A stretch of 64,000 bases of DNA from Polytrichum commune (Eukaryota > Streptophyta > Polytrichopsida > Polytrichales > Polytrichaceae): NCBI GenBank assembly GCA_950295325.1, contig OX485808.1, forward strand, positions 7,566,501 through 7,630,500, in the 5' to 3' direction. Of this stretch, positions 3,552-13,475 are shown piece by piece. How positions within the stretch are numbered: the stretch's first letter is position 1; every line of letters starts with the position of its first letter. The position numbers were made by a program, and so were the translations under genes. Below the pieces are notes generated by a model, which saw only the letters and a list, made by a program, of their open reading frames with translations, was not told where the DNA came from and did no database searches.

Positions 3552-3927
3552 CCTCTCGGCGGAGAGGAACTTGGCGTGGAGATTCCTCTCGGCCGAGAGG
3601 AAACTTCACTCCATGGTCTTTACACCCCGCGGGCGCGTGACTGGGACTAGCGGACTAGCGGTCCATGTCCAATTGTTGTTCACATGGAACCATTCTCCAC
3701 TTCAGTCTTCAAAGTTCTCATTTGGATTTAGGTTGGAGCGCAGTTTGGCACCGTAACTCGGCTTTCGGTTCATCCCGCGTCGGCAGTACTGATAACCAAA
3801 AATGGCCCAATTGGAGCTCTCATTCTGTGCCAGGGTTCAACCAAGCAACCCTGGCGGCTTACATATTTAAAGTTTCAGAATAGGTCGAGGGTGTTACACC
3901 CCCGATGCCTCTAATCATTCGCTTTAC

Positions 3928-3982
<55 letters not shown>

Positions 3983-4234
3983 AGTTTTTCGCCCCTATAC
4001 CCAAATCTGACGAACGATTTACACTTCATGAACCGGTTGAGTTGGATTGAGATTAAACAAAGAGATCTGTACCAGCAACAAAGAGATCGGTGCCAGGGTA
4101 CAGGGAGTCGGGTTTCCTCTCGGCCAAGAGGAAACTTGGTGCCAGGGTGAAGGGTACGGTGTGAGTTTTCCTCTCGGCCGAGAGGAAACTCAGTGCGAAG
4201 GTGAAGGGTGCCAGTTTTCCTCTCGGCCGAGAGG
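3552..4234. repeat. Palindrome cluster A (5 copies)
   Basis: Five copies of a 16-bp hairpin core, CCTCTCG-NN-CGAGAGG, at 3552-3567, 3585-3600, 4116-4131, 4170-4185 and 4219-4234. The central dinucleotide is GC in all five. The first and third copies have one arm mismatch each. In this cluster the arms continue outward as GTTT on the left and AAAC on the right, unlike the AACTT/AAGTT arms of the other clusters. The copies sit in otherwise non-coding DNA; short ORFs across them are read from the palindrome itself and are not believed. Confidence 0.9.
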
Positions 4235-5000
4235 AAACTTGGTGGCAGTGTTCATGAGGAAAACAGGGCTATGTCAGCTGGGCCGTACAACTATACGGCT
4301 GCCACGTGGATGAAGTTGTACGGACAACTGATCGTAGGATCAACGGCAACAGAAAACATACACTACTTGGACCGGCACCTGTAAAAGAGAGCATGTGTTG
4401 GGTTCTGAATGCGTGTAGTGTCGACAATGAGAGGTATGGAAATGCCTCAAGAGTGAGAGTCGGAGACGGTTGTGGGTCTTATATAGTAGATGGGAGATTG
4501 GTGGTTTTGAAATAGACGGGATCCTCTCTTGTACGGAGAATCAACAGTTGAGGTGTAGAGAGAATGATTGTTTGGCGAGTAGATGTGCTTTCTAGTTGAT
4601 AGTACATATCATGTACATTCTACACTACCTTCCATTGAATGCCACTGATCTGAAAATTTTGAATTTAGTGTACATATATCCTCTCCAATGTGTTCATTGA
4701 TTGTTGATCGTGGTTTAGTGTGATGAACTCTCAATCCCACTGTAGTCCAATCTCCTATAAACATGTGTCATTATGGTATTTGTTCTTTTACACTCACCGA
4801 ACCACGCACCGACCAGTGGGCCATGGTGGCAGCATGCAATATTTAGTAAATGTCAAAAAATTTACCCTAAACCCTTAACCAAAAAAACGGCAAGATGAAC
4901 CATCATTAATATCCATGGGCCCACTATATAATTGCACTCAAAACAATGTGCCATTGATATATGAATTTAAGACATTAAAAGGTAGAATGGAAAAAAAGGC
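4235..5000. other. Non-coding stretch, nothing recognised
   Basis: Low-complexity AT-rich sequence with short ORFs lacking motifs. A degenerate CCCTAAACCC tract appears near 4861-4880. Confidence 0.35.
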
Positions 5001-5026
5001 TAACCCCAAACCCTAAACCCTAAACC
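5001..5026. repeat. Interstitial telomere-like tract
   Basis: About three and a half units of the plant telomere heptamer, in the CCCTAAA orientation, the first degenerate. A second short tract lies at 9554-9570. Both are too short to suggest a chromosome end, but they are a hint of plant origin. Confidence 0.7.
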
Positions 5027-5252
5027 GTCTTGGAGTGTGAAACTAAACATTGTTGTAACTTAATATCATGTCACACTTGTCTGTAGCAAACATGATCCAG
5101 TGGGTGACTTGTGGCGAATTCAAAAAATCTGGGGTCAATTGCCATTTCGTAGATGCTTCCATGTTAAGTTCTTTGTTTGTTAAAATTATGAAAACAATCA
5201 CTACACTGATTACCCAAATTGGTGAGGGATGGCTAATAGTGTTGTTGGGAAA

Positions 5253-5506
5253 GTACACTAAATAGGATGTTGAGTGTTTAATACACTAGATGAGAACGAA
5301 TACACTCAATATCAATAACCATTAGTGTTAGTAAAAGATATGGGAAAAATTGGGATATAATAAGGGATGTGGTAGTCGGGAAGAAAGCGGTACATTTATG
5401 TCCAACACTAATGGTTAAAGAATTGAAAATTAGTTTTGAGCAAGGTAGGGTGGTGGTAGCAAACCCCAAATATAATCAAACACTAAATATCTTATTTAGT
5501 GTAGTG
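5253..5506. mobile_element. CACTA-like MITE (TAGTG family, copy 1)
   Basis: A 254-bp element bounded by imperfect inverted ends: the left begins TACACTAAATAGGATG, the right ends CTTATTTAGTGTAGTG. Internal blocks (for example the run through ATACACTAGATGAGAACGAA) match the reverse complement of the element at 63128-63465, so the two are one family in opposite orientation. The right end finishes TAGTG, as in CACTA elements. No clear target duplication is visible and it has no coding capacity. An ORF over it is incidental. Confidence 0.65.
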
Positions 5507-8280
5507 AAGGTGATACTAAAGTTCTTTATGCTAGGGATTTAGTGGCAGCAAAAGACCTAGGAAGCATTGGTCATCGTGAGTAATATTTATAACATCATTA
5601 TTCATTTAAAGTATTGGCACTATTCGTTGACAAGCAATGTGTTTGCATACGAAATTTTTAATCACACTACTAGCACCTTAGAGCACGCACTAATTTTCTC
5701 AAAATGAGCATGTATTTGTGAATTCAAAGATGTATGTGGAGTTTTAGAATGAGTCTTCGTATTATTATAAGATAGCTATGTCCAATTTTGGTTTCTTATC
5801 TTAATCAAACACCTAGTATATGTCAGTGATATGTGGTTTGATGTGGCTCCAAGAATGGATAATAAAAAGGAGCTTTATTTTAAGGTACGAGGAGCCAAAA
5901 AGCTCGCGATGGGACTAGAGGTACATGTTGTCAAAAAGGCTAATTGCGTGGAGTAATAAAGCACAAGGGCGTCTACGAGATAGCGGCTGATATCAACTTT
6001 ATGATCCACTCGGAAAAAGACTTGAGAGTACTATGATCTAAAATAGGGACAACGGTCAAGATCATCATATGGTCTCCAAAAATGATTAAGAAATGGCTAT
6101 ATCATGACTTGGATTAGGTAACCACTTGTTTCATATCCAACGATAAGTGGGTGCAGAGGTTTAAAATGTCCATATAAGAAATGCTTAACTTAGCTCACTT
6201 ACTTATTGACTTTATTAGTTTTTTCGGTAGCTATGATCTCATAATTGACATGATTAAGTATGCCTCCTTGATGCCTTTGACCTTGAAATGTGAGTGTATA
6301 TAATCCAGTATAACACCACAATGGGCCCACAATATATGTGTGAAATAGTGGAAGGGCAAGATTTAAATGAGATGCATGAAAATGGGAAAATGTTTAATGC
6401 ACAGCCACATTTTAAGAACTAAAAAGAAAAGAGGATGAGGATCATTACTAACCAACTAGATGATGGTCTCCATAACATTACTTAGTTGTTATTGAGTGTT
6501 CCGTTATAATAATAGTAGGGCTCGGGGCAATCACACCCCCCTTCCATTTCGTTATCGCGTGCGTTTACCGGGTACGCAACTCCCGTATTATGTGGCCCTG
6601 ATTATAATCACTTACAATGCGTTTTATTCCAATATTGAGTGATGCAATTTGTTTTAATGTAGGAACCCCTTGTGGCCCTTCTAACAAAGGATCCAAAATT
6701 GTAATTATATGTAGGAAACAAATATGTTTTGAAGCATATGATTGCATTGAAAACCTGATTATTTGGTTTTTTTGATACAGGTACCATAGGTCAAACTACC
6801 CAACTTTTTGGACTTTTTCATAAAATTTCAACATTGTGAACGACTTTTAATTTTCGTGGCAGGCAACTATTCGTGGTTTATAATTCTAATTGGAGGCAAC
6901 TATTCGGGTGGATTTTTAAAACTATGTGTAGGCAGTTTTTTTCTCATCTCATTTTATTTAATTTGGTCTTCAAAAAATTGAGGGGTTGATATAAAACTAT
7001 TCCCAATAGGCAATGTTCAGAAGGCATAATTTCAAGCATCACATCCGATTTAATGAATTCTTCAAAACCAAGTCCAACCTCCATGTAGCAGCCTCCATGT
7101 AACAGGTGAGGCTATATTTACAACGTTACAACATTACACCATGATTATAGACACATGGATGCATTAATGATCAAAGTCGGTTCAACATTTTGCCATTACC
7201 ATTTTGTAGATGTGATTTTTCCACTCACAACGTGAACTTTGGCCTAAATATTATGAGTTGCATGTCATGGATTTTAAAAGAGACATGTGCCCAACTTGAA
7301 GGTCATCTCATCATAATCAAAGTGTTGTAAGGTCAAGGTTTTGTGTGCCAAAAAAAACTGTGTTACAACTTAATGTATTTCAAGTACCTTCTCTTCCATA
7401 TTTATCATATGTTCTTAAAGCAAATCTGTTTTGTGTGTTTATTATAGTCAAATTTCATGAAACAGTTTGGCACGCATATGGAAGATTACTCATCACTAGT
7501 AATGCTTCTTATTTGAATGAAATACTCATGTTTTATAAAGATGGGTTGACATAATTTGAATGAATTACTCATGTTTTATAAAGGCAATAATTTGAAGGGT
7601 TGCTTGTATTTCATAGGGAAGGGTAACTCTAAATTTTCCCTTTCAAAATGAAGGGTTACCTCAAAAACTGCCTTTCATGTATGTATTGAAGTTTTTGTTG
7701 AAAGTGCACATTACCATGTTTATCATTTAAGCGACGTTGAAAAATCTAAAACAAGTAAGACCAAAGAACACACATGGTTAAAAGATAGAACTATTTCATT
7801 AATGAAACATGGTTGTTTGAGTACAATAAAACGGTAATGACATCTCAACATATTGATATCAATGATAATCTCGAGGACAACAAGAAAGCAGTAGTATAAA
7901 GATGTAAGAAACTCACAATCTAAATCACGTTTGAAATCTTTTATGAATCATTCATGCACCTCTCCCAAATATTTTTAAAATCAAGAGACTCCATAGGAAT
8001 CTTCGCCATACTCCATTTTGAAGGGTTTAATAAAAATCACCCCTTCTTTTTTGAAGGGTTGCAAATTTTTTTTGAAGGGAGTGTGAAGTTCTGGACCCCA
8101 AGAAAAGGGTAATAGCCATTCAATTTTTGTCCCTGCTTTATATCATGGTGCTTGCATAATAATTTATCTATCACTTAACAGACGAGGAATTGCCAAAGCG
8201 CAAGAAAATAAAATTGAAAGACAAGATCCATGTTCAGGGGTCTCTTTTGAGGCATGAAGCCCGCCTTTACATAAATATAT
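5507..8280. other. Intergenic stretch with a decayed repeat
   Basis: No gene is recognised in this 2.8-kb AT-rich stretch. The only notable segment is 5829-6126, described separately, which resembles 48741-49020. The small ORF at 7345-7554 has no motif and no coding signature that I can see. Confidence 0.35.
5829..6126 (+). repeat. Decayed dispersed repeat, copy 1 (partner near 48.8 kb)
   Basis: The start (TGGTTTGATGTGGCTCCAAG) and the end (AAAAATGATTAAGAAATGGC, then a TTTCATATC block) both align with 48741-49020, separated by similar distances. Conceptual translation gives the recurring fragments WFDVAPR and KMIKKW, broken by many stops. It looks like an old copy of a coding sequence, perhaps from a transposon, but I do not recognise the protein. 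Confidence 0.4.
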
Positions 8281-8697
8281 ATAGGTTTGCCTAGGTGCCC
8301 CCCCCCCGGTCCAAACGTACTCTATCGACACATGTCGATTGGAGCTCCCCTACACGGGCTATTAGTCGGTATAGAGGGTCATAATGGGTAGGTGAGATGA
8401 TCTTGGCCGTTTATAATGACGGCTCAATGTACGCCGTCGATGCGGGCCACAATCCGAGGCCCCCGGGTGGAGTCCCTTCGGATTCATTGCGCCTTTTCAT
8501 TTGTGGCCGCACCTCCTCCCTCCCCTCCTCTCTCCCTCCCTCACTCCAACTCTCTCCCTCTCTTTTCCTCGCATTTCCTCACATTTCCTCGCCTCTCATT
8601 GCATTTGCACGCAATCTCCCACTACTCCAGGTTTGGGCGCGGAGGTGCATATCCAGCGGCTTCGGAAATCTTCGGCGCGCCTCACAACAACTTCTGG
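8281..8697 (+). promoter_or_regulatory. GC-rich island with possible 5' UTR exon
   Basis: About 400 bp clearly richer in G, C and CpG than its surroundings, containing a long pyrimidine tract (8510-8600, CTCCCTCCC type) and ending in a good splice donor, TTCTG|GTGAGT, at 8697/8698. This is what a promoter with a non-coding first exon of a plant gene looks like. If so, the first coding exon would be downstream on the plus strand, possibly the ParB-like gene starting at 11745, whose ATG lies just behind an acceptor (TTGCAG). The link is inference. A short ORF across the tract has no motif. Confidence 0.35.
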
Positions 8698-8924
8698 TGA
8701 GTATTCCACCACTACACCAGATTTTGCTTATAACTTCATGTTTGAATGTTGGTATGGAGCGATTTGATGAACATTCTTTGAATTATTATGAGTATGTTTG
8801 TATGTGCTTTGAATCTGTTGGTCTTGTGCGATCTCTCTGAACATCTGAAAATAACTGGTGTGCATCTCTGAAGTCAGAGTTGTGCTCTCTCCACTTAGAA
8901 TATGTGTTTGAGCTATCTATCAGG

Positions 8925-9135
8925 GTTGAATGTGTTGAGTTGTTGGTTGGGGTGCAGAAATTTCAAGGTTGAATGTGTTGGGTTGCTGAAATTTCTTGCT
9001 TGAATGTGTTGGGTTCAATGTGTTGGGTTCAATGATTTGGGTTGCTGAAATTTCTTGCTTGAGTGTGTAGGGTTGAATGTGTTGGGTTGATTGTGTTGGG
9101 TTGAATGTGCTTGGTTGCTGAAATGTCAGGGTTGA
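8925..9135. repeat. Minisatellite, TTGAATGTGTTGGGTT-type
   Basis: Irregular tandem repetition of a GAATGTGTTGGGTT motif, often followed by GCTGAAATTTCTTGC. Unit length varies from about 15 to 45 bp. The ORF on the opposite strand, rich in QHIQP-like peptides, is a by-product. Confidence 0.8.
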
Positions 9136-10060
9136 ATGTCTAGGATTGAAAGATGTGTGAGTGCTAATTTGATCTTTTAAATCAGCTGACCTCAAGTAAG
9201 ATGCAATGAGATGTGTTGACCACAACTGTTCTTTTGTGCCAAAGACTATTTTCACACTAACCCTCTGTCCTTAGTAAAAGATTTTCTTGGGTGGTAGGTG
9301 GTTTCTGTACACTTTGGGAGGCGATGCTGATTGCATAGTCTGCTTGCAATAGTGAGAGTGCACTTTCTGCAGATACAGTGAGAACTGGGATATAAGGTGG
9401 TTATTTAGTTACCTTTGAATGCATCTTACTCCCTCATATTGGAATAAGTAAACATAGTATCTTCAATGTTCTGTTCCTCAACTTCCTCAAATAATGGTGG
9501 ATCTTGCTGAATATCAATGTAGCAATTGTAGCTGTAGTGGCATTCATCAATGTAAACCCTAAACCCTAAAAACTAAACTAAGCAAATGTTCTTTTCAATC
9601 TCCAGTAATTATATTGTATTTGCTGTTGCCGAACTAGTTCCAAAGTTTGTCTTTCTTCTGCGTTAATTGTTTGTGTGATAATCATGCAGTCTCATTGAAA
9701 CATCACATCTTATTGCAAGAAACTCAATTGGGCGTCATCAATTTCCATCATAGATTCATCGTCACATTGCCATGAGATTCTGGATACATTGGTAGCAAAG
9801 GAGAACCAGACTGGTACTGAAGAGGATCTGTGTGGGCGCCATGATGGGTGTATTACAGTTCCAAAGTAGAAATTGAGACATTGCAGTCTGATAGTGACAT
9901 TGACACAATAGTTATGTTTTGGCATGTGCATTGATATCAATTGCATGAATTCATAGTCGGTATTTAATGCTTGATTCAACTCAATGTTACAAAACTCAAA
10001 ATAGTGTCACAAAATAGTGTGGAGAACTTTTCCCTCACACAAACCCTCCCTCACAAGCAC
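9136..10060. other. Non-coding stretch between minisatellite and palindrome cluster B
   Basis: No gene recognised. A short plus-strand open stretch near 9720-9870 reads moderately well, but it has no motif and no supporting splice sites, so it is not called. Confidence 0.3.
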
Positions 10061-10505
10061 CAGGATGGGAGGGAAAACTTCCTCTCGGGCGAGAGGAAGT
10101 TCTCCCCTGCGCGTTCAGATATCTAGAGCCCCTCCCCACCCTCACACACACACTAGGAGAGGGAGAACTTCCTCTCGCTCGAGAGGAAGTTCTCCCCTGC
10201 GCGTTCAAATATCTAGAGCCCCTCCCCACCCTCACACACACACTAGGAGAGGGAGAACTTCCTCTCGCTCGAGAGGAAGTTCTCCCCTGTGCGTTCAAAT
10301 ATCTAGAGCCCCTCCCCACCCTCACACACACACTAGGAGAGGGAGAACTTCCTCTCGCTCGAGAGGAAGTTCTCCCCTGCGCGTTCAAATATCTAGAGCC
10401 CCTCCCCACCCTCACACACACACTAGGAGAGGGAGAACTTCCTCTCGCTCGAGAGGAAGTTCTCCCCTGCGCGTTCACATTTCTAGAGCCCCTCCCCACC
10501 CTCAC
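10050..10505. repeat. Palindrome cluster B: five 90-bp tandem units
   Basis: A tandem array with an exact 90-bp period. Palindrome cores lie at 10081, 10171, 10261, 10351 and 10441 (16 bp each). The spacer between them contains CTAGAGCCCCTCCCCACCC and a CACACACA tract. Arms are AACTTCCTCTCG and its complement, extended in copies 2 to 5 by GGGAG on the left and CTCCC on the right. The central dinucleotide is GG in copy 1 and CT in copies 2 to 5. Because the unit is a multiple of three, both strands give long ORFs with repeating TSSRARGSSP-like peptides; I regard these as artefacts. Confidence 0.95.
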
Positions 10506-10696
10506 CCACAGAGTGACGTCTCCCTAGCCTACAATCCTTTTTTAAATATTCAAAGATGTCAATTCTTCGAGTCATTTCTCTGTGTCAATATCGTCATCCT
10601 TGCACCAGGCAGAAGCACGTTTCAAATCAAGCTCATTGATGATCACATTACAAAGAACTGGATACTTGGAACCAAGATGTGTAATTACCGACAATC

Positions 10697-10885
10697 TTGA
10701 GTATGTGCTGTGGTGAATGCTTAATAAAGAAGTTTTTGTTGGAGCTTGCGACTAAAATTACTGTGGTAAGCAAACGTCTTCATACATTATTAATCGATTT
10801 TGCTGATCTGTGGTTGGAAAATGGCAGGTTCGTTATCTCAGACAGTTTCGCGAGTTGCGACTCCTTTGCCTTGAAGGCAACCCTC
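10697..10885 (+). pseudogene. Possible LRR relic resembling DRC3/LRRC48
   Basis: Two exon-like pieces: one ends LELATKITV at donor GTG|GTAAGC (10764/10765), and the next starts after GGCAG near 10828 and reads VRYLRQFRELRLLCLEGN followed by PLCK. Joined in phase they give a leucine-rich-repeat end with the GNPLCK signature seen in cilium-linked LRR proteins such as DRC3/LRRC48 (dynein regulatory complex). Such proteins persist in plants with swimming sperm. No further exons of the expected protein are visible on either side, so this is at most a fragment lying between two palindrome clusters. Other LRR families could also give this motif. Confidence 0.35.
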
Positions 10886-11176
10886 TTTGCAAAGTACAAG
10901 TTCCACTTCAAGGAAAAGATAAAGAAAAAGAGTGTCATTGTTTTTTACAACTGATATGTGATGTTTGTTCATCAATCCCTACTCATGGGGAGCGTGGGGG
11001 CTGGTTTAATGTCTACTTGTGGCAGGTGGACTGTGTGGTAAGGTAATTAGTCTATATTATGTTAGTAAATCCAATATGGAGGAATGGATGCATGTCTTTT
11101 GTTTTTCTGGTTTCCTTCAATTTAGAATGATGTGGGTTACGTATTCGATGACAAACCCCTATCAACATGACAGCAG

Positions 11177-11625
11177 GAAAGGGAAAACTTCCTCTCGAGC
11201 GAGAGGAAGTTTTCCCTTCGCTCTCATTTTAAGAGCCCCCCCCCACCCTCACACAGACTTCAGGAGAGGGAAACTTCCTCTCGCTCGAGAGGAAGTTTTC
11301 CCCTGGTGGTGCGCATTTTAATAGCCCTCCCCACCCTCACGCACACACTTGAGCGCAGGGGAAAACTTCCTCTCGGTCGAGAGGAAGTTCTCCCCTGCGC
11401 TCTCATTTGAAGAGCCCCTCCCCATCCTCACACACAGACTTCAGGAGATGGAAAACTTCCTCTCGACCGAGAGGAAGTTTTCCCTTGCACACTCATCTTA
11501 TTAGCCCTCTCCTAACCCTCACTCCCCCACTGACGTCTCCCTAGCCTTCAATCCACCCCTATCAACATGACAGCAGCAAAGGGAAAACTTCCTCTCGACC
11601 GAGAGGAAGTTTTCCCTTGCACACT
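11177..11625. repeat. Palindrome cluster C (5 copies)
   Basis: Cores at 11191, 11277, 11369, 11459 and 11591, spaced 86, 92, 90 and 132 bp. Central dinucleotides are AG, CT, GT, AC and AC. The outer arms are mostly GGGAAAACTT on the left and AAGTTTTCCC on the right, differing from cluster B at the same position on both sides. The segments CCCCTATCAACATGACAGCA and GACGTCTCCCTAGCCT flank copies here, and the latter also ends cluster B, so whole blocks have been duplicated. The last copy lies about 30 bp upstream of the candidate TATA box of the next gene. Confidence 0.95.
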
Positions 11626-11637
11626 CATCCCTCACAT

Positions 11638-11645
11638 TATATAAA
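11638..11645 (+). promoter_or_regulatory. Candidate TATA box of the ParB-like gene
   Basis: TATATAAA lies 100 bp before the ATG at 11745. A short 5' UTR intron is possible between CAAG|GTACAA (11678) and TTGCAG (11739). The palindrome at 11591-11606 ends 32 bp upstream of this box. Confidence 0.5.
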
Positions 11646-13237
11646 CCCTATCTATCAACGTATGCGATAGCCTCAAGGTACAATCTCTCTCAAGCTTGCT
11701 TTATTCCACAAATACTAACCATTTCAATTTGTCTTGCAGGTGACATGGACAAGGAAGTGCTATGGACAAACCTTGTTGGGAAAATGGAAATAGGGCAGAA
11801 GGGTGTCTATTGGGAATTAAAAGACACTCACTTGAGGCACTGGTCACTTCAGGTACACAGGAGGGACAAGGAATCTCCGTTAAAACTAACCTTCGCATAC
11901 AGGATAGACAAAAATTGGATTCCAAACCCAGGAAACGCAATAACCCTGGCATCGGTCGGCGATCGCGACCAGCTTAATGTAACGGTGCTCGAAGGACTCG
12001 AAGAACGCACTTTGTTCATCGACTGCAAAAGGCATAGATTTCACCTGGAGCCATTCACCCAATCAATCGAAATGCTTCCCCCGGGGGACAAAAAAGAGAT
12101 GGAGAGAGTGATGGTCTCTGGTGTATCGAAGAAGGCAATTAACTTCCTTCTTGAAGCAATAGGTGATATCAATTCGAGAGAGGCGAACGAAAGGGAGGCT
12201 CTGAGGAAGCAAAAGAAGAAACAAGCGGAGACACTTATAAAATCTAGGACTGATGATGAGGGGAGTAAGAAGAAGAAACACAAGAAGCAGAAACCCGGCG
12301 ATCAAGATGTTGAAGGAACAAGAGAGGTGGCGAAGAAGCCCAAGAAGGCTTCTGGCGAACTCGTTCTCTTGGCGACGCCTACAAACGCGACGCCAATAGA
12401 GCCATCCCCAAGAGACATCAGGTGCAAGGAAACCTCCGGCCTCAAAGAGGACTACTGATGAGGAGCGGAAGACAAAACCCAAGAAGGCGAAGGCTGCGGA
12501 TGCATCGGAAGAAACTCCACTAGTGCTTACCGTAACAGAGAGGGGCAGAGTCATCGCGCATGGCGAGGAACCAAGTCTTGAGGAAGCTGCAGCGGACCGC
12601 AAGAAATTCGTCCAATTATTTGGACACCTATATCCTCTCGGTATCGAGAAAGTTTTCCATGTCTATATCAAAAAAATGTTGAGCGCAAAGTCGTATCAGA
12701 TTACTCGCCCATTGGATGATGCCGGAGTAGCTCTCATGAAGAACTACCTTATATAGACCCCACCAGCGTGGCCCCATCACAATCTATGTCTCATGCCGAA
12801 ACTCAATAAGGGTGAGACATGGAGAGAAGAAATGACTTGGGACGACATCAAGGACGGCAATTTTGTGATCATCAACGGTCAACACAGCGTGGCTGCATCA
12901 AGGCAGATTATAGGACACAAGGATACAGATCAATCACTGAAGGATAAATTGAAGATTTGGCCTTGTACGATTGTTTGGACCAATGATCCAAGCATGACAG
13001 TTCGTCTTTCCTATATTCTAAACAACTCTAATTCTTTCAACAAGTTCACTCCTACTTGGACAACACAGATTATATACTGTCGTAGGGTGTGGGTGAAACT
13101 AAGAAGGCCCTTAAAACAACGGATCAACGCTGTGGGGACAACTATAGACCCCAAAATGAAGGAGGCATGGAGAGTAAATTTTCATACACCCACTCCCACT
13201 CCAACTTTTATTTTCGCACTCCAACATGCAGACTCCA

Positions 13238-13475
13238 CTCTCCCATCCCTCAATCAAGGCTCAAGGGATTGGGAGATGTGAGGGAACTTCCTCTCGGCCG
13301 AGAGGAAGTTCCCTCACCTCCCTCAATCCCTTGATCCCTGATTGAGGGATGAGAGGATTGATGGAACTTCCTCTCGGCCGAGAGGAAGTTCCCTCACCTC
13401 CCTCAATCCCTTGATCCCTGATTGAGGGATGGGAGGATTGATGGAACTTCCTCTCGGCCGAGAGGAAGTTCCCTC
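13238..13475. repeat. Palindrome cluster D (3 copies) inside intron
   Basis: Cores at 13290-13305, 13370-13385 and 13450-13465, exactly 80 bp apart, all with central GC. They fill the 360-bp intron (13174-13533) of the ParB-like gene. The first copy has 20-bp perfectly paired arms (GTGAGGGAACTTCCTCTCGG, 13278-13317) and, with a few mismatches, arms of about 60 bp (13238-13356). Copies 2 and 3 share the spacer CTCAATCCCTTGATCCCTGA. Confidence 0.95.

Follow-up and report, generated by a model that had tools for sequence, protein, structure and literature searches.

A 23-kb transposon with four palindrome arrays

We analyzed a 64,000-nucleotide stretch of the genome of the moss Polytrichum commune (contig OX485808.1, positions 7,566,501 to 7,630,500), referred to below as the window, which carries most of a large transposon with clustered copies of the palindrome CCTCTCG-NN-CGAGAGG. 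Window positions are preceded by w; C1, C2, and so on are genome contigs, and L001, L002, and so on are further loci that were read. The initial annotation had reported 18 copies in four clusters, and a pattern search recovered them as 16 exact sites and 2 sites with one mismatch each, far above chance: no exact site occurred in 100 dinucleotide shuffles. When up to three mismatches were allowed, 19 window sites were found compared to a shuffle mean of 0.70; the 19th, at w15469, has three mismatches and represents the chance level. The genome-wide count that the annotation had called for yielded 304 exact sites in ~408 Mb and 2 for a reversed-pattern control. Seven contigs make up 406.1 of the 407.8 Mb of the assembly, and 57 minor contigs the remaining ~1.7 Mb.

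Two genes of the transposon serve as landmarks for the arrays. A gene on the minus strand (w1–2930; identified by a Pfam match, with inferred exon limits) encodes the presumed transposase, a protein with a DUF7869 (PF25273) domain. An accessory ("right") gene on the plus strand begins with a long coding stretch at w11746–13230. Array A (w3552–4234) consists of five palindromes with GC centers at w3552, w3585, w4116, w4170, and w4219, the first and third of which carry the single mismatches; it has the DUF7869 start codon on one side and a TATA-containing block on the other. Array B (w10081–10456), delimited by pattern search and Tandem Repeats Finder, has five palindromes spaced at 90 bp (w10081, w10171, w10261, w10351, and w10441) with GG and CT centers. 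The five palindromes of array C (w11191–11606; sites at w11191, w11277, w11369, w11459, and w11591), four of them at ~90 bp, have AG, CT, GT, and AC centers. Arrays B and C are both upstream of the accessory gene start (~w11746). Array D (w13290–13465) contains three palindromes at 80 bp (w13290, w13370, and w13450) with GC centers and is flanked by coding sequence that aligns with a sister subfamily (w11705–13186 and w13507–13600). Since there is coding sequence on both sides, this array probably lies in an intron of the accessory gene. The spacings of 90, ~90, and 80 bp and all six center dinucleotides are as initially described, the spacings being reproduced by Tandem Repeats Finder; array A has no strict period.

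The perfect arms are mostly longer than 7 bp and reach 10 to 20 bp in 16 palindromes when arms of at least 10 bp are searched for. In w1–22127, 16 of the 17 palindromes with such arms have a GC content of at least 40%, compared to 0 of 9 in 87,280 bases of flanking and other window DNA. The inverted arms around a variable central dinucleotide had led to the suggestion that the palindromes are crossover sites of a serine recombinase. Known hix sites have ~12-bp inverted arms around a 2-bp overlap, so that arm and spacer lengths do fit. However, the centers differ between neighboring sites, which would hinder recombination between them; there are many sites per element; Pfam scans of the element proteins tested revealed no recombinase domain; and a genome search for Resolvase (PF00239) found a single match, on minor contig C23. 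The recombinase interpretation is thus largely refuted, and we give it hardly any credence.

The transposon extends from w−928 (left end at L001:9072) to w22124, ~23.05 kb, as defined by terminal inverted repeats, target site duplications, and alignment of copies. Copies at C1:15.65–15.69 Mb and C3:52.81–52.85 Mb align piecewise with the region from ~w−935 to w22127, where the alignment ends, and are ~91 to 98% identical to the window element outside the tandem arrays. The left terminal inverted repeat reads AACATCATATTAAACATTATGGGACTTT and the right one AACGCGATATTAAACATTATGGGACTTT (reverse complement), the latter located by end alignment at w22097–22124 on the minus strand; an inverted-repeat test found TATTAAACATTATGGGACTTT inside AAC... 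at each element end. Target site duplications of 4 bp were found in five of six copies tried (TAAT in the window copy and GGAT, AAAG, ATAT, and TACT in the others), and for the sixth, no right end was located in the 1 kb of sequence examined. The genome copies listed include at least 15 full-length accessory stretches at ≥93% identity, the window's own among them, and at least 19 transposase stretches at ≥97%; these are lower bounds from profile counts in which 40 transposase and 40 accessory candidates were scored.

The palindrome matches listed (50 of the 304, all on C1) are without exception inside six such elements. The palindromes are therefore part of the anatomy of a large transposon, carried as passengers, and are not a mobile unit of their own. 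A tiny mobile palindrome, as proposed initially, or a miniature inverted-repeat or foldback-like element with its own target site duplication, was rejected accordingly: what moves is the 23-kb transposon. Satellite DNA is also ruled out, since the arrays recur inside dispersed larger mobile elements; they were read on C1 to C6 and on C7 through the alignment of a copy of another family (L037, see below) across its array. The motif is therefore not confined to the window, nor do all copies share long flanks, either of which the initial annotation would have taken as a sign of local expansion. Flanks are common within a subfamily, where the whole element has been copied, but not between subfamilies.

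Both ends of the transposon are rich in another motif. The left 300 bp (L001:9065–9364) contain seven copies of GGGAAC and the right 300 bp (w21828–22130) four of GTTCCC; these subterminal motifs are probably transposase sites. Nine further GGGAAC/GTTCCC motifs are found in w1–21800, four of them within array D, in its outer arms, hinting that a single protein might recognize both the subterminal motifs and these arms.

The DUF7869 gene comprises open stretches w1754–2692 and w3–1691, with a start near w2930. Its match to PF25273 (E = 7e-41; 140.4 bits versus a cut-off of 26) is to a domain without an assigned function in Pfam. The block at w4363–4489 (minus strand) contains, in CTATATAAG, a TATA and may be a promoter; it is 76.7% alike between the window subfamily and a sister subfamily over 133 columns and is the sole noncoding part of w2701–4500 that aligns. 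A scan of w4300–4550 with prokaryote-type promoter models, which say little here, gave no sites. The coding stretch with which the accessory gene begins has no Pfam match above the cut-off. Its frame is broken in the window copy near w12455 and again by a stop at w12754–12756, while the C1 copy is open over 518 amino acids. Of 972 first-look candidates for the accessory protein in the genome, 83 were scored, so that counts of this protein are lower bounds.

The accessory protein carries VIINGQHSVAASR (w12865–12903), which we take, without database support, to resemble a ParB/sulfiredoxin-type loop. Together with the arrays flanking the accessory gene and the size of bacterial parS sites, which is close to that of the palindromes, this presumed likeness would fit a eukaryotic counterpart of ParB/parS, in which the accessory protein loads on the palindromes as a partition or clamp protein. 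No ParB family match was obtained in Pfam, however; PHROGs gave only a weak match (E = 0.1) to a phage family of unknown function; the best hit in PDB, to heat shock proteins, had E = 0.18; and a single-sequence AlphaFold model of w12757–13240 had a predicted local distance difference test score of 33, with no usable fold. We consider such a partition system very improbable.

Further open stretches at w13507–21831 on the plus strand are taken as coding for one or more accessory genes. Within w18202–18801, there is an NLI/FCP1-like phosphatase domain (PF03031; E = 5.2e-9, 36.4 bits versus a cut-off of 21.8) that is kept in the C1 copy (E = 1e-9). Enzymes of this type act on RNA polymerase II, and it is conceivable that the domain helps to counter silencing. 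Pfam scans of the element proteins tested matched neither a Mutator-like element (MULE) transposase model, DUF7869 being found instead, nor DUF1985, and no relatives were confirmed in viral contigs. A genome search with PF09331, the VANC domain, gave zero matches but is uninformative, as its control matched nowhere either. A ~519-bp insert at w15861–16379, missing from the C1 and C3 copies, is a piece of another dispersed repeat: parts of it are 95 to 98% like the L002 repeat, whose copy also matches w55195–55757. Outside the transposon, a 143-bp tandem repeat is present in 5.3 copies at w35927–36680.

Palindromes are conserved where the intervening sequence is not

The window element belongs to subfamily A, and two sister subfamilies, B and C, have exons that are 76 to 86% and 65 to 81% alike, respectively. 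Sites (up to three mismatches) are present in all four places in 11 of 11 subfamily A copies read. In the three B copies and the two C copies read, sites lie next to the transposase gene, next to the accessory gene, and within the intron region. The number of units per array varies between copies. When the palindromes were masked, the array intervals of A gave no blastn match (E ≤ 1e-3) to one B copy (L028, L029) or to one C copy (L032, L033), whereas in the same comparison the coding sequence aligned, as did the promoter-like block with B. In these comparisons, the palindromes are the sole part of the array intervals that is still alike. The view that the palindrome itself is the conserved unit, while the sequences between copies differ, is thus borne out.

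The subfamilies differ in their half-sites, and they do so on both arms. For half-site counts, loci L001, L002, and L009 were left out and at most one half-site mismatch per site was accepted. Exact CCTCTCG arms stand on either side of the center at 129 of 161 subfamily A sites and at 24 of 48 subfamily B sites; in subfamily C, both arms read CCACTCG in 15 of 27 sites, and four more combine CCACTCG with CCTCTCG. Unlike half-sites, for example, CCTCTCG with CCTCGCG, are paired in 15 of the 48 B sites. A relaxed pattern, TTCCWCKCG-NN-CGMGWGGAA, matches 432 genome sites versus 0 for the control.

Other DUF7869 families carry arrays with different arms

DUF7869 is abundant in the genome, with 1491 first-look candidates, of which 150 were scored and all 150 were above the cut-off. 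It was not found in 14 control genomes, the nine named of which are prokaryotes, a result that says little about plants. Two other families, L036 and L037, were picked by frame length and read. L036 has sites of the CTCCCACGGGTG-NN-CACCCGTGGGAG type before the transposase gene and a further one in a gap between its coding blocks. L037 has GGTTTGGGTCG-NN-CGACCCAAACC before the transposase gene in a ~78-bp repeat of 15 units, 13 of them exact. The inner letters of both palindromes are unlike CCTCTCG; further out, GGTT is common to L037 and subfamily B. A small stem just inside the element end also differs in its letters between families (GGGACT/AGTCCC at L001:9092–9109 and GAGACT/AGTCTC at L037:7431–7448) and is another symmetric change between them.

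When the 3 kb upstream of nine further DUF7869 loci were read, arrays were present at five. Those at L045 and L047 share AGGTTTACGGACG-NN with ~95-bp spacing; L046 has CCCACGGGTG-NN; L048 has CCCACGGGCG-NN; and at L041, where the array is GGGTGAGGCA-TG, the center is TG throughout. The latter two arm sequences were each seen at a single locus. Exact sites in the genome number 3138 for GGTTTGGGTCG-NN, 644 for CCCACGGGTG-NN, and 254 for GGTTTACGGACG-NN, and the reversed controls gave zero in each case. Among the matches listed, centers are AT, GT, CT, AG, AC, and GC for GGTTTGGGTCG; AA, TT, and AT for CCCACGGGTG; and CG, TG, and CA for GGTTTACGGACG. A DUF7869 match accompanies CCCACGGGTG sites at C1:33.993–34.015 Mb and C1:48.454–48.475 Mb, where the sites have a similar two-block spread over 21 to 22 kb. 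Arrays laid out alike but built from other arms thus occur in further DUF7869 families, the common design being arms of 10 to 13 bp around a two-base center.

A family-specific dyad as the likely function

Of the three options offered by the initial annotation, a protein-binding dyad is the best supported; the idea of a conserved palindromic unit stands with it, while the mobile palindrome and the recombinase site fall away. Fixed half-sites, a 2-bp spacer whose letters matter little, crowding of sites close to promoters and within introns, and different addresses in different families all fit a dimeric, family-specific binder. We therefore favor, by a modest balance of the evidence, the interpretation that the palindromes are family-specific dyads bound by a regulator that the element itself encodes, acting in the manner of VANC on its targets (see below). 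The arrays would probably be the docking sites through which each family recognizes and controls its own DNA.

Each palindrome would be a two-fold-symmetric site with ~10 to 12 bp per half, whose 2-bp spacer is under little sequence constraint and to which an element-encoded homodimer binds. The first candidate for the binder is the accessory protein, and the second is the N-terminal part of the DUF7869 protein. By raising the local density of sites, tandem arrays would allow the protein to recognize its own family only; once bound, it may switch on the element promoters or shield them from host silencing. Slippage or unequal exchange would add units to the arrays and remove them, and the specificity of the protein would evolve in step with the arms. 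The unlike half-sites paired in subfamily B fit a tolerant half-site of this kind rather than a perfect stem.

Several observations weigh against this interpretation. No DNA-binding domain was found in Pfam among the element proteins tested, and the failed structure prediction of the accessory protein is no help to a dimeric binder either. No array was seen in the 3 kb read at L040, L042, L043, and L044, four of the nine further loci. Of the 50 relaxed-pattern sites listed, not all were linked to an element gene; the one at C1:1,733,071 (L039), for example, is accompanied by more such palindromes, and no element gene was identified in the 3.5 kb read there. At the same locus, L039:1131–1643 holds a cluster of palindromes of the AGGATCCACTCG-NN-CGAGTGGATCCT type. 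Last, the outer arms beyond the core covary. In 21 hand-picked representative sites, 148 of 231 outer positions are complementary versus a mean of 87.9 with shuffled partners, and none of 5000 shuffles was as high; in subfamily B, complementarity reaches 36 positions out. A dimer site of ~24 bp does not need such covariation. Complementarity that is kept while the outer letters change from array to array calls for either a structural role, as a hairpin or cruciform, or a mutation process that makes palindromes symmetric.

In the first case, the palindromes would act as structures, either as RNA hairpins in a 5′ leader or intron or as DNA cruciforms, with selection on complementarity and not on letters; such structures could serve small-RNA production or act in splicing, transcription, or replication. 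The outer arms, different between arrays and still complementary, speak for this explanation, and single sites with perfect arms of 47 bp (L030:568), 33 bp (L030), and 53 bp (L035:2082) fit it as well. All arrays may be transcribed, as the TATA block and splice-like sites suggest. Single-arm mismatches in subfamily A, counted without L009 and at sites with one arm exact, comprise 21 G-U, 10 A-C, and 8 other pairs when the presumed transcribed strands are read. When the same 39 mismatches are read on the plus strand, however, they are 15 G-T, 16 A-C, and 8 other; the counts are partly common by descent and depend on a presumed direction of transcription. The core letters are conserved within each family far beyond what complementarity would need, and nearly a third of the B sites (15 of 48) contain mismatched pairs. 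A two-base loop is also too small for RNA, so that the innermost pair would open. On balance, we regard this structural role as unlikely.

In the second case, the palindromes would be functionless by-products of mutation, tandem-repeat units having been made symmetric by template switching or foldback replication. The very long perfect arms, found in single copies, suggest recent inversion or symmetrization of repeat units, and the covarying outer arms and the differing unit number between copies agree with such a process. Selection-free decay, however, should have worn away the core along with the spacers, whereas the core has been kept at the same places after the spacers became unalignable. 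The same design with different letters in several DUF7869 families, and the 87,280 bases of control DNA without a GC-rich (≥40%) palindrome with arms of at least 10 bp, are also difficult to reconcile with it. We consider this explanation improbable.

The closest parallel to a family-specific, element-bound dyad is VANDAL, a group of MULE transposons of Arabidopsis. There, transposon-encoded VANC binds target motifs and causes loss of methylation (PMC5735166, PMC10398659); the motifs are arranged as tandem repeats that lie upstream of VANA as well as within VANB and VANC introns, vary from one family to another, and are subject to rapid turnover (PMC5735166). Both VANDAL and the elements described here are multigene transposons, and both carry short, family-specific motifs in noncoding tandem repeats, located upstream of the transposase gene and inside accessory introns (here, a presumed intron); in both, the motifs differ from one related family to the next and repeats are rapidly gained and lost. 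The two also differ: here, the site is a 20- to 26-bp palindrome whose two central bases mostly vary, a DUF7869 protein is the presumed transposase, the target site duplication is 4 bp, and no VANC-type domain was found in the element proteins. The main text of PMC5735166 does not describe VANC motifs as palindromic, which is a further point against a VANC-like mode of action. The logic would be VANC-like, if binding and antisilencing occur as we infer, and the elements are not known to be related to VANDAL.

Other systems resemble the arrays in part. In CACTA/En-Spm elements, subterminal repeats are bound by TnpA; repeated short motifs and, as proposed here, an element-encoded binder are common to both, but TnpA repeats are at the ends, while the palindromes are internal and the ends carry GGGAAC. 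Operators of bacterial dimeric repressors and parS sites are dyads near the promoters of their own genes, as the palindromes appear to be, but here the host of the sites is a eukaryotic transposon and tandem arrays reach 15 units. The hix sites discussed above share little with the palindromes beyond inverted arms of ~12 bp around 2 bp. No literature naming DUF7869 was found, and the best-ranked publications on palindromic transposon arrays, moss transposons, and VANC, judged by titles and abstracts, include none that describes such elements. The site design, the transposon group, and the host are therefore new to us, while the logic is already known from VANC. As a more tentative extension, which we hold as possible but rather doubtful, the DUF7869 transposons of this genome would use a self-recognition code that evolved independently of VANC, in which each lineage has its own palindromic address in promoters and introns and its own reader protein. 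The thousands of addresses, with no fewer than five clearly distinct kinds of arms, would in that case make up a natural set of matched protein-DNA specificities.

VANC/VANDAL is, to our knowledge, the one plant case in which it has been worked out how transposons recognize their own copies and escape silencing without harm to the host, a question that is otherwise open. If the proposed interpretation is true, a second group of transposons, apparently unrelated and found in a distant plant, uses clean palindromic sites to the same end. The arms race would then be testable with thousands of natural sites and with clear predictions as to the identity of the binding protein and the arm positions that determine specificity. 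The readers of the sites would be a set of new sequence-specific DNA-binding proteins. DUF7869 elements, whose name-giving domain has no function listed in Pfam, gain a described anatomy.

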